Below are positions 43,740-47,070 of a DNA stretch of 64,000 nt, piece after piece; the first letter of the stretch is position 1; each line of letters opens with the position of its first letter. The DNA is from Couchioplanes caeruleus. Lineage in GTDB: Bacteria; Actinomycetota; Actinomycetes; Mycobacteriales; Micromonosporaceae. The position numbers and the translations under genes were made by a program. Where the stretch lies: positions 1,922,001-1,986,000 of the forward strand of contig NZ_RJKL01000001.1 in the NCBI RefSeq assembly GCF_003751945.1, in the 5' to 3' direction. The notes beneath the pieces were generated by a model that searched no databases, was not told the DNA's origin, and worked only from the letters and a program-made list of their open reading frames with translations.

Positions 43740-45542
43740 ATGGAACCCTTCGCCCTGCTGCATCGCGACGGCGCCGAGCACGTCGAGATCCTGCACGGCG
43801 ACGTCGTCACGGTGCCGACGCTCGCCGACATACCTCTGCCCGCCGGGAGCGGACCGCGGACGCTCGCCCTCGTCCCCTACCGCCAGATCGCCGAACGCGG
43901 CTTCGCCTGCATCGACGACGGCACGCCGCTGGAATGCCTGCGGATCCGGGCGGCCCGGACCGTACCGGTGGCCGAGATGATCGACTCTCTGCCCGCCACG
44001 CCGCCGCGCCTGACCGGCCAGGGCTTCGACATCCCGGACGAGGACTACGGCCGGATCGTGGAGGCGGTCCTGCACGACGAGATCGGGCGCGGCGAGGGCG
44101 CCAACTTCGTCGTCCACCGGGTCTTCGAGGCGACCCTCTCCGGTGACCCGCTCGAGGCCGCCCGGGCGGCGTTCCGCAACCTGCTCACCGGCGAGCGCGG
44201 CGCGTACTGGACGTTCCTGGTGCACACCGGCACCCGTACGCTCGTCGGCGCCACCCCCGAGCGGCACGTCAGCGTCGACGCCGGGCTGACGATGATGAAT
44301 CCCATCAGCGGCACCTTCCGCCACGACGGCGAGCGCGACCTGGTGGAGTTCCTCGCCGACCCCAAGGAGATCGACGAGCTCGCCATGGTGCTCGACGAGG
44401 AGCTCAAGATGATGGCCGCCGTCGCCGAGCACGGCGGCCAGGTCATCGGGCCGCACCTGAAGCGGATGGCGCATCTCACCCACACCGAGTACCTGCTCGC
44501 CGGGCACGGCTCGCGAGACGTGCGCGAGGTGCTCCGCGAGACGATGTTCGCGCCGACAGTGACCGGCAGCCCGGTGGCGAACGCCAGCCGGGTGATCGCC
44601 CGCCACGAGCGCCGCGGCCGGGGCTACTACGCCGGGGTGCTGGCCCTGCTCGGGCACGACGACGAGGGCCGGCAGACGCTGGACGCGCCGATCCTCATCC
44701 GCACCGCGGAGATCTCACCCGCAGGCAGGCTGCGCGTGCCGGTCGGCGCCACGCTCGTGCGGCACTCCACGCCCACGGGCGAGATCGCGGAAACCCACGC
44801 CAAGGCCGCGGGCGTTCTGGCCGCACTCGGTGCCACCCGCATGACGACTTCCGTACGCCCGGAGCCCGACGACCCCGCGATCCGGGCCGCACTGGCGTCC
44901 CGCAACGACGGCCTCGCCCGATTCTGGCTGGACCAGCGCCGGCCGGGCGCGCTCACGATGCCGGCGCTCGCCGGCCGCAGCGCGGTGGTCGTCGACGCCG
45001 AGGACGCCTTCACCGCCATGCTGGCCCACCAACTGCGAGCGCTCGGCCTGACCGTCACCGTGATGCCCTGGACGGTCCCGGTCGTCCCGGCGGCCGACCT
45101 GCTGATCATGGGCCCGGGCCCCGGCGACCCCGCCGCCGACGACGACCGGATGAGCACCCTGCGCTCCCTGGTAGCCGGCGCGCTCGCCGACCGGCGCCCG
45201 CTGCTGGGCGTGTGCCTGGGCCACCAGATCCTGGCCGCGGCCCTCGGCCTGCGCCTGCGCCGCCGGCACGCGCCCTATCAGGGCCTGGCGCGCGACATCG
45301 ATCTGTTCGGCACCCGGCGGCGGGTCGGCTTCTACTCCAGCTTCACCGCGCTGGACGCGCCGGTGCCCGGCGTGGAGATCGCCGCGGACGCCGACGGAGC
45401 CGTCCACGCGCTGCGCGGTGACGGCTTCGCCGGGGTGCAGTTCCACCCGGAATCCGTGCTCAGCGCGGACGGCCTCAGCGTCCTCGCGGAACTCCTCCCA
45501 CCACTTCTCTCCCGGGCGATTAGTCCGGCGGCGAGCGGGTAG
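43740..45542 (+). CDS. Fused anthranilate synthase (TrpE-TrpG fusion, PhzE-like)
   Basis: A 600-residue fusion with GAGGAA before the ATG. Residues 1-400 are the chorismate-binding subunit (MNPISGTFRHDG, ELKMMAAVAEHGGQVIGPHL, APTVTGSPVANASRVI, RIRTAEISPAG-like end). Residues 410-590 are a class I glutamine amidotransferase with the nucleophile in LLGVCLGHQILAAAL and the His-Glu in VQFHPESVLS. Such fusions make anthranilate (TrpEG) or aminodeoxyisochorismate (PhzE). The chorismate domain resembles PhzE, but there are no other phenazine genes nearby and a trp attenuator precedes it, so anthranilate synthesis is preferred. Glutamine supplies ammonia through the amidotransferase domain. Confidence 0.88.
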   Translation: MEPFALLHRDGAEHVEILHGDVVTVPTLADIPLPAGSGPRTLALVPYRQIAERGFACIDDGTPLECLRIRAARTVPVAEMIDSLPATPPRLTGQGFDIPDEDYGRIVEAVLHDEIGRGEGANFVVHRVFEATLSGDPLEAARAAFRNLLTGERGAYWTFLVHTGTRTLVGATPERHVSVDAGLTMMNPISGTFRHDGERDLVEFLADPKEIDELAMVLDEELKMMAAVAEHGGQVIGPHLKRMAHLTHTEYLLAGHGSRDVREVLRETMFAPTVTGSPVANASRVIARHERRGRGYYAGVLALLGHDDEGRQTLDAPILIRTAEISPAGRLRVPVGATLVRHSTPTGEIAETHAKAAGVLAALGATRMTTSVRPEPDDPAIRAALASRNDGLARFWLDQRRPGALTMPALAGRSAVVVDAEDAFTAMLAHQLRALGLTVTVMPWTVPVVPAADLLIMGPGPGDPAADDDRMSTLRSLVAGALADRRPLLGVCLGHQILAAALGLRLRRRHAPYQGLARDIDLFGTRRRVGFYSSFTALDAPVPGVEIAADADGAVHALRGDGFAGVQFHPESVLSADGLSVLAELLPPLLSRAISPAASG

Positions 45543-45552
45543 CGCTAGGGAT

Positions 45553-45597
45553 GTCGGTGGTTCAAGCGGATCGAGAGCCTCCGCTTGGGCCACCGGC
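45553..45597 (+). terminator. 18-bp hairpin between the anthranilate synthase gene and the retron
   Basis: Positions 45553-45570 pair with 45580-45597 around a 9-nt loop. Three of the 18 pairs are G-U as RNA on the plus strand and would be mismatches on the minus strand, so the plus-strand transcript is the folded form. It starts ten bases after the stop codon and probably ends the upstream transcript. Confidence 0.6.
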
Positions 45598-45601
45598 CCT
45601 C

Positions 45602-45607
45602 TACACT
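45602..45607 (+). promoter_or_regulatory. Candidate -10 element of the retron RNA
   Basis: TACACT lies so that transcription would start at about 45613, the first base of the a1 repeat. No good -35 is visible. Confidence 0.45.
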
Positions 45608-45612
45608 CGTCC

Positions 45613-45782
45613 ACCGGTGGCAGCGTGTCCCCGAGCTGGCCGCCGGTCCGCCGACGGCCTCTCCGGGGTACCCCCGGGGGCGAGAGATTGAGCCACGCAG
45701 CGCATCGCCGGCGCGCCGCCGCGCTCCGCGCGGGACAGCGCAGGCACGACCGGGCAACGTCGGGGCACGCTGTTCCACCGGT
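45613..45782 (+). ncRNA. Predicted retron msr-msd RNA
   Basis: A 170-nt region directly before the reverse transcriptase gene is closed by a long inverted repeat: 45613-45634 (a1) pairs with 45760-45782 (a2) over 21 base pairs, interrupted by one bulged U (45628) and a UU bulge (45773-45774). AGC follows at 45634-45636, with G45635 as the likely branching guanosine, as in characterised retrons. Next come msr-like hairpins: 45638-45646 with 45651-45659 (UCCG loop, one C-A mismatch) and 45660-45668 with 45672-45680 (9 bp, UAC loop, two G-U pairs). The rest, about 45683-45759, is the likely msd, with a perfect CCGCGC/GCGCGG hairpin at 45719-45733. Boundaries between msr and msd are inferred. Confidence 0.72.
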
Positions 45783-45786
45783 ACGC

Positions 45787-47070
45787 GTGTCGGCCGCGCT
45801 CGCCGACGCCCTCCTGACCAGCCGCTGGCGCCCCGGCCCCCTGCAGCGCACCGGCACGGCGGTGCTCGGCGGCCGGCCGCCGTGGCTGCGCATCGCCGTG
45901 GTCGCGGTGCTGCGGGCGTACCGGCACGCCCCGGCCGACCGTCCGCGCGAGCTCGCCGCCTTCCTGTCCTGTCTGGAACGCTCCGGACGCCCCCTGGTGC
46001 GCCGCCATCCCATCCGGCTGCGCCGGGCCACCCCGGTCCGGATCGTGCGCATGCGCTGGGACACTCCCCGCATCGACGACCTCGCCGCGCTCGCGGACTT
46101 CCTCGGCGTCGACGGCGACCACCTCGACTGGTACGCCGACCGCCGGCACCTCAACCGCCACGCCCGCGACGAGCGGCTCCGGCACTACCGCTACGCCTGG
46201 CTGCCCCACCGCCTCATCGAGGCTCCGAAGCCCCGCCTGCGTGCCCTCCAGCGCCGGCTCCTCGACGACCTCCTCGGACGGCTGCCGGTCCACCCCCACG
46301 CCCACGGGTTCGTCCCCGGCCGCGGCGTGCACACCTTCGCCGCACCCCACGCCGGGCAGAAGCTCGTCATCGGCCTGGACCTGACCGCGTTCTTCAGCTC
46401 GATCACCGCCGCCCGGATCCACGGCCTGTTCCGCACCGCGGGCTACCCCGAGCCGGTCGCCCACACGCTGACCGCCCTCACGACGACCGCCACCCCCGCG
46501 GCGGTGCTGCGCGGACGCACGGACCCGCACCGGGCCGCGCTGCTGCGCCGCCCCCATCTTCCCCAGGGCGCGCCGACGTCGCCCGCCCTGGCGAACCTGG
46601 TCGCGTACCGCCTCGACCGGCGGCTGACCGGTCTGGCCGACCGCTTCGGGCTGCACTACACCCGCTACGCCGACGACCTGGCCTTCTCCGGCACCCTCGG
46701 CAGAGGCGAGCCGGCCCATCTCATCGCCGCGGTCCATACGATCGCCGCCGACGAGGGTTTCCGGGTACACCCGCGCAAGACCCGCGTCCGAGGCCGAGGC
46801 GACCGGCAGCGTCTAGCCGGTCTGGTGGTCAACGAACGACCGGCCGCCTCCCGGGAGGACTACGACCGGCTCCGGGCGGTGCTGCACGACGCCGCCCGAC
46901 GGGGCCCCCTCGTGGCGAACCGCGAGGGACACGACGACTTCCCCGCGTACCTGCGAGGCCGGGTCGCCTGGGTCTCCCACCGCCACCCGGCCCGGGCCGC
47001 CAAGCTCCACCGGATGCTGGCTGTCGCCCTGGCCGGGCCCGCCGCACCCCCCACCGTGACGACCCCTTAG
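45787..47070 (+). CDS. Retron-type reverse transcriptase
   Basis: A 427-residue RT starting at GTG 45787, four bases after the a2 repeat; no ribosome site is visible, so the start is set by the RNA boundary and the frame. RT motifs in order: HAHGFVPGRG (about residue 172), KLVIGLDLTAFFSSI with catalytic D198, LPQGAPTSPALANL (Q260), YTRYADDLAFSG (YADD at 294-297), GFRVHPRKTRVRG and LAGLVVNE (about 343). Retron-specific signatures are FAAPH (family NAxxH) and LAGLVVN (family VTGLVVN). The N-terminal 120 residues (SAALADALLTSRWRPGPLQR, LADFLGVDGDHLDWYADRRH) are longer than in small retron RTs. Retrons make msDNA for phage defence. No toxin or effector gene is adjacent; the convergent XRE gene overlaps by four bases. 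Confidence 0.9.
   Translation: MSAALADALLTSRWRPGPLQRTGTAVLGGRPPWLRIAVVAVLRAYRHAPADRPRELAAFLSCLERSGRPLVRRHPIRLRRATPVRIVRMRWDTPRIDDLAALADFLGVDGDHLDWYADRRHLNRHARDERLRHYRYAWLPHRLIEAPKPRLRALQRRLLDDLLGRLPVHPHAHGFVPGRGVHTFAAPHAGQKLVIGLDLTAFFSSITAARIHGLFRTAGYPEPVAHTLTALTTTATPAAVLRGRTDPHRAALLRRPHLPQGAPTSPALANLVAYRLDRRLTGLADRFGLHYTRYADDLAFSGTLGRGEPAHLIAAVHTIAADEGFRVHPRKTRVRGRGDRQRLAGLVVNERPAASREDYDRLRAVLHDAARRGPLVANREGHDDFPAYLRGRVAWVSHRHPARAAKLHRMLAVALAGPAAPPTVTTP

Follow-up and report, generated by a model that had tools for sequence, protein, structure and literature searches.

The 64,000-nt stretch of the Couchioplanes caeruleus genome analysed here (the window) bears on its plus strand an inverted repeat, hairpins between the two arms and then a gene for a 427-aa reverse transcriptase (RT). 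Retrons are today read mainly as RNA, RT and toxin, and the locus raises the question of whether this RNA and RT make up a retron and whether any effector goes with them. The original prediction had claimed a retron of a poorly characterised kind, a reading supported by the RNA model, its covariation and the family and fold of the RT, and the element at 45613-47070 is, in our judgement, very probably a retron. Its features and their surroundings are the following.

43740-45542, upstream of the retron: gene for a fused chorismate-binding and glutamine-amidotransferase protein, present in 40 of 40 genus genomes
45602..45607, plus strand: -10 box TACACT; TANNNT is conserved ahead of the a1 core
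45613-45782, plus strand: structured RNA from a1 through a2, directly preceding the RT gene
45613..45634, plus strand: a1 arm, pairing with a2; 14 of 15 consensus pairs are changed on both sides among 77 relatives
45635..45635, plus strand: predicted branching (priming) G, directly 3' of the closing A-U pair of a1/a2
45636..45681, plus strand: msr, containing a conserved hairpin (45660-45680) with a GGGG-NNN-CCCC core
45682..45759, plus strand: msd, template of the predicted msDNA, with a hairpin at 45707-45745; helices 4 and 5 covary
45760..45782, plus strand: a2 arm, pairing with a1 with covariation
45787..47070, plus strand: retron-type RT, GTG start, 427 aa
RT residues 1-62: N-terminal helical region of no assigned family; the RT core begins at about residue 99

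The structured RNA and its conservation

In the single sequence, the imperfect inverted repeat originally pointed out (45613-45634 with 45760-45782) is present, as is the AGC beside it (45634-45636). The a1/a2 duplex has an energy of -39.5 kcal/mol, equalled by one of 20,000 random placements of the same geometry in the window, which is probably the site itself as the energy is exactly identical. Single-sequence folding gave the RNA a z-score of -1.46, with an equal or better fold in 15 of 200 shuffled sequences, and in a coarse best-duplex scan 2 of 150 random neighbourhoods matched the retron site. Single-sequence evidence for an RNA in this GC-rich DNA is thus weak, and with a z-score of only -1.46 such folding was ruled out as proof of the RNA. 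Since the lone sequence is not special for GC-rich DNA, the case is decided by comparison with relatives. No Rfam family was matched at its gathering score anywhere in the window.

From a contig scan for relatives of the RT, which found 129, 80 loci were kept (L001-L080), and a covariance model, R1, was built on 28 aligned RNAs from 32 Micromonosporaceae sources, the window included. The consensus fold of these 28 RNAs has 35 pairs, eight of them with compensatory changes. With the window and 79 loci as sources (L068 was left out of the RNA searches, being without upstream DNA), R1 places the RNA 5' of the RT gene in 77 of 80 at E≤0.02. Besides all 32 Micromonosporaceae, the matches cover 45 of the 48 sources outside the family used for building, among them Nocardioides, Acidimicrobiia, Patulibacter, planctomycete and verrucomicrobial records. 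The RNA was missed by R1 in L075, L076 and L077 and matched only partially in L069.

In the 77-row alignment, which was fitted to R1 and in this way favours a paired result, 96.5% of the cells pair and 27 of the 35 pairs are changed on both sides, compared with a shuffled mean of 15 and with none of 500 shuffles reaching this number. Likewise, 251 cells are changed on both sides, versus a shuffled mean of 48 and values of 30-56 in slid structures. The alignment made by MAFFT only (A1), from which L004, L005, L012 and L029 are absent because a regular expression missed them (all four were found by R1), agrees on four of five covariation measures, though with less variation; its count of further pair types does not exceed that of shuffles (464 of 500). 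Aligned separately with MAFFT, 24 RNAs of Nocardioides and its allies have, by eye, the same arms, the GGGG-CCCC hairpin and CGAG. The consensus stem of a1 and a2 comprises 45619-45634 with 45760-45774, the outermost arm bases 45613-45618 lying outside it. The original prediction had made its case depend on arm covariation and on a conserved RNA upstream of homologous RTs, and both are found, in 14 of the 15 a1/a2 pairs and in 77 of the 80 sources, respectively. Its claim of RNA-specific G-U pairing is borne out as well, the pair 45662/45678 being U-G in 61 and C-G in 16 of the 77 relatives.

Beyond these loci, R1 finds the RNA just upstream of the RT in all three plasmid records carrying an RT of this family (Burkholderia, Tsukamurella and Dietzia; E-values 0.00015, 0.0048 and 0.015). 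The Couchioplanes-type RNA differs from that of other retrons in that R1 has no match at E≤1 at any of 11 further retron loci, to 10 of which PADLOC assigns a type (L154 is without typing). In genomes of the family, a pattern of the RNA motif matches 27 of 200, whereas the reversed pattern matches none. Of these 27, 26 belong to the 32 genomes whose RT match reaches E≤1e-80; the remaining one (G153) has a weak RNA match (47.8 bits) near a contig end, with no RT in the 3 kb examined. Six genomes combine a strong RT match with no exact pattern, and R1 finds the RNA in each of the four examined (G000, G115, G188 and G194). One RNA fold thus accompanies one RT family in records of Actinomycetota, Planctomycetota, Verrucomicrobiota and Pseudomonadota.

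The a1/a2 stem is closed by the A-U pair 45634/45760, and the next base, G45635, is G in 76 of 76 relatives (the partial L069 is excluded from the counts of branching G and promoter). The triplet at the a1 end is AGC in 41, AGA in 30, AGT in 4 and AGG in 1 of these, hence the textbook AGC is relaxed in this family. Branching at G45635 is predicted by analogy with known retrons. The TACACT box, said originally to start the transcript on the repeat, lies at 45602-45607, and in 72 of 76 relatives a TANNNT begins 7-18 nt ahead of the a1 core, compared with a mean of 0.78 and a maximum of 4 at random places (500 draws). With a box at this distance, the transcript should begin on a1. In the msr hairpin, the GGGG-NNN-CCCC core is invariant in all 77 RNAs and compensatory changes lie outside it; the msd hairpin covaries. 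Comparison of relatives shows the RNA with its pairing, an AG that never varies, a promoter box and the family to which the RT belongs.

The distance between RNA and RT varies. In L004, L005 and L012 (Winogradskya and Actinoplanes sp. TFC3), the RNA lies about 310-660 nt upstream of the RT start with repeat-rich DNA between. In three Dactylosporangium loci (L006, L013 and L020), the a2 arm reaches into the RT frame and shares its first codons, so that a1/a2 pairing could affect the translation start there.

The reverse transcriptase

The mechanical open reading frame of the RT begins at 45418, but the nearest homologues align from 45787. By profile, the enzyme is a member of the PADLOC groups RT_other and RT_outgroup, whose models match best and at nearly full length (560 and 534 bits); RT_other is also the top model for the 10 other family members scanned. 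Type XIII comes next at about half the score (303 bits, aligned from residue 92), followed by III-A, and PADLOC recognised no type XIII partner gene in the neighbours scanned. NCBIfam retron models match below cut-off (157.5 versus 235), and the group II maturase model group_II_RT_mat scores 44.6 bits against a cut-off of 300; with no Rfam intron RNA in the window either, a group II intron is not indicated. The solved folds nearest to the AlphaFold2 model of the RT (pLDDT 92.6) are the Ec86, Ec67, Eco8 and Ec78 RTs, ahead of group II and DGR RTs. By profile and fold, the RT belongs to the retron lineage.

The FAAPH and LAGLVVN that had been noticed in place of the usual retron motifs are found at residues 184-188 and 343-349. 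YADD and the histidine of region X are kept in 44 of 44 family RTs; of the other NAxxH positions, the alanine is present in 36 and the asparagine in 4. In region Y an exact VTG occurs in 5 of the 44, and by the triplets listed the third-position G is kept in all. A 2014 survey of retron-like RTs gives NAxxH in 59% and VTG in 47% (PMC4244168), and according to a 2019 review substitutions in both occur in proven retrons (PMC6868368). Compared to the retrons Ec86/Eco1, Ec67/Eco2 and Ec78, the Couchioplanes-type family is thus relaxed in AGC, NAxxH and VTG alike.

A further difference from these three is about 95 extra N-terminal residues in the Couchioplanes RT, which precede the RT core and are kept in most of the RT family. 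This region yielded no Pfam family at cut-off when scanned in five pieces and no PDB match at E≤0.001 (model pLDDT 75), and a known domain was rejected for it on these searches. From the VIA second look nothing is claimed on it, as residues 1-80 were barely covered.

The original prediction had also proposed placing the RT in a tree of retron clades. In a 42-row tree, rooted towards a far group of two group II-like RTs, the RT family forms a grade next to or outside the typed retrons. A basal position is only a hint, as the branch to the far group has a length of 6.56, long rows occur among the typed retrons too, no DGR row is included and the bootstrap is unsettled. The same genome has two more RVT_1 genes (C1:7201509-7202210 and C1:840714-841400), which lie far from retron RTs in the tree and are possibly group II intron RTs.

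Genomic setting and the search for an effector

The upstream gene (43740-45542) is followed by a terminator-like hairpin at 45555-45595. In 25 loci of this gene without a retron in the examined stretch (L117, L118 and L121-L143), similarity to the window stops at 45597-45605, which places the retron in a variable intergenic site. Near 45599, where homology ends, only the variable region begins; reading this point as the edge of a precise mobile unit was rejected. Several genomes without a retron at this locus carry one elsewhere. Distribution of the RT is patchy: a match at E≤1e-80 was obtained for 32 of 200 genomes of the family and one at E≤1e-40 for 11 of 296 genomes of the class, and partial RT genes are found in G111, G116, G144 and G123. 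Phages or plasmids as carriers were considered and rejected: 9 of 50,697 phage records match, none with 60% identity or more, and 81 of 72,556 plasmid records, of which three match across 80% or more of the query. RTs of the family also occur in metagenome bins labelled Bifidobacterium breve and Klebsiella pneumoniae (L031 and L068), labels which look doubtful.

For the neighbourhood, open reading frames from 81 loci (the window and L001-L080) were called with a simple gene picker in about 5 kb around the RT where the contig allowed. Clustering of these frames gave the RT as the only common cluster (75 members). No neighbour cluster occurs in more than 8 of the 81 loci, the next after the RT being an SDR enzyme at scattered positions (8 of 81), and the downstream neighbour clusters with nothing in 52 of the 74 loci having one. 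Recurrent neighbours are an NADH-dehydrogenase-like flavoprotein, MerR and TetR regulators, an acyltransferase, a chitinase, an aldo/keto reductase, a HAD hydrolase, a DinB/mycothiol-transferase protein and an unknown 93-aa frame, and by Pfam they are housekeeping. When nine recurrent neighbours and the MFS gene of the window were scanned with PADLOC, only the MerR protein matched, to mad1. The 93-aa frame lies shortly 3' of the RT in five Nocardioides loci (L033:6369-6647 and homologues in L035, L038, L043 and L044) and has no Pfam or PADLOC match.

After clustering, inspection of the nearest neighbours and family scans, a linked effector in the neighbourhood was thus rejected. As a result confined to the neighbourhood, no effector gene is linked to the RNA and RT, which sets the Couchioplanes retron apart from the typed-effector retrons Ec86/Eco1, Ec67/Eco2 and Ec78. 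Retrons without a clear effector are mentioned in print (PMC8867640). The system may accordingly work without an effector, use an unlinked host protein or have a role other than abortive defence.

The best surviving alternative is an ordinary defence retron of the tripartite kind, its effector being either the product of a distant gene in the genome or the N-terminal helical region of the RT itself. Known retrons usually have an effector, the RT carries roughly 95 residues ahead of its core, and the patchy distribution with broken RT copies would suit an accessory defence trait. However, the 81 loci share no neighbour, and the Pfam and PDB searches with the N-terminal region returned nothing, so that we regard this alternative as possible but do not favour it. 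As a whole, the locus is in all likelihood best explained as a two-part retron of RNA and RT without linked effector, the transcript of which would give rise to branched msDNA. Weighing against it are the relaxed motifs, the NCBIfam matches under their cut-offs, the ordinary fold of the single sequence, the one A1 measure that does not beat shuffles, the loci in which R1 misses the RNA or matches it in part and the lack of a linked effector.

Predicted msDNA and scattered msd segments

With priming, branching and msr recognition modelled on known retrons, the promoter with its -10 box at 45602 would give a transcript running from a1 through msr, msd and a2 into the RT gene, and pairing of a1 with a2 would place G45635 beside the first template base, G45759. 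The RT would then bind the conserved msr hairpin, start DNA synthesis on the 2'-OH of G45635, copy leftwards through the msd and stop just before the msr hairpin, at about 45682-45690. The expected product is a branched msDNA of about 70-78 nt primed at this G.

Searching the own genome (G000) with R1 and then with 81 bases of msd revealed two extra segments away from the retron, C1:4877991-4878065 (92%; L207:1992-2066) and C1:2158271-2158329 (93%; L208:1972-2030). By eye, the first of these begins at a TGA resembling the stop codon of the preceding gene. Among 67 genus genomes, 14 extra msd-like places were found at E≤1e-8, all in seven retron carriers (G000, G056, G111, G202, G212, G213 and G512), and local comparison adds two more in G213, giving 16 msd-only copies in total. 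In the latter genome, an array of three msd-like segments (L218:1876-2085) resembles the msd of its own retron. Hits of lower strength (E 1e-5 to 1e-3) turned up in carriers as well as in non-carriers and were disregarded, and two short matches (19 and 25 nt, in L216 and L209) do not enter the number of copies.

At E≤1e-8, copies are hence present in 7 of 27 carriers (25 checked by tblastn, plus G000 and G182) and in none of 40 genomes of the same genus without detected retron, absence being judged from the msd search and for part of them also from an RT search; the Fisher p of 0.001 is uncorrected for kinship and refers to a threshold chosen after seeing the hits. For 15 of the 16 copies, the resident msd is the best or equal-best match among 57 msds. 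Some of the ties represent the same assembly twice and others sister genomes (G000 with G056, G111 copies 2 and 3 with those, and G512 with G212), while no other genome ties for six copies (two of G202, three of G213 and copy 3 of G512). For G111 copy 1, three other entries outscore the own msd.

With 200 nt around the parent RNA offered, all 16 copies nevertheless align within the equivalent of 45682-45766. Two (G111 copy 2 and the G212 copy) end exactly at 45759, the base before a2. Left ends fall at 45689-45690 (G000 copy 1, G111 copies 2 and 3, and G202 copy 2), at 45693 (G512) and at 45682 (G213 copies 1 and 2), and the remaining copies are shorter pieces. Ends within the msd span are likely those of the predicted msDNA, and the msd-only copies scattered in carrier genomes are a footprint that indirectly supports conversion of the msd segment into DNA. 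We read the copies as probable insertions of msDNA, often partial.

Alternatively, the segments could be an independent dispersed palindrome of the REP type, the retron itself being left untouched by this reading. Palindromic repeats can spread along other routes, and the msd is strongly palindromic; the array in G213, two G512 copies in similar flanks 280 nt apart and the three copies in G111, where only RT residues 218-423 match, are compatible with such an origin. A clean empty site, looked for at both copies of the own genome, was not obtained, and msDNA insertion is therefore inferred rather than traced base by base. For own-genome copy 2, G056 has a homologous place with 92% identity up to 11 nt from the copy and nothing msd-like in it, but the conserved flanks are spaced differently (312 versus 175 nt). 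For copy 1, the flank on the left and that on the right have their matches at separate places in other genomes. The restriction of copies to carriers, their match to the resident msd and their ends, all inside the msd span with two exactly at the base before a2, argue against an independent palindrome, which we consider the less likely origin. Very improbable is a third alternative, an older relative of retron RTs using the RNA otherwise, for example by untethered template copying with no branched product, for which the position of the family as a grade outside the typed retrons and the non-universal AGC could be cited.

A more speculative extension of the main reading, offered as a tentative idea only, is that an effector-less retron repeatedly seeds msDNA hairpins into the host chromosome, perhaps as the function of this lineage, its RTs possibly standing near the retron base and retaining a pre-effector lifestyle. 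By their titles, papers of Lampson and Rice in 1997 and of Lampson et al. in 2002, cited in PMC6868368, describe partial msDNA copies elsewhere in the chromosome of Nannocystis exedens and propose retrotransposition. That organism is a myxobacterium, whereas the present copies come from seven genomes of a Micromonosporaceae genus and were compared with the resident msd and with genomes without detected retron. A partial literature search found no paper on the RNA of the Couchioplanes-type RT family and none on msd copies in actinobacteria, from which we claim no unpublished status for either. PADLOC terms these RTs "other" and "outgroup", and the RNA of the family is described here for 77 sources.

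One RNA fold accompanying one RT family without a shared neighbour would mean either that effectors are non-essential to retrons or that the effector lies elsewhere in the genome. With the scattered msd copies, an old question, that of a return of msDNA to the chromosome, can be put to the test in soil bacteria amenable to culture, and the RNA together with its RT may provide a high-GC retron for making single-stranded DNA in actinomycetes.
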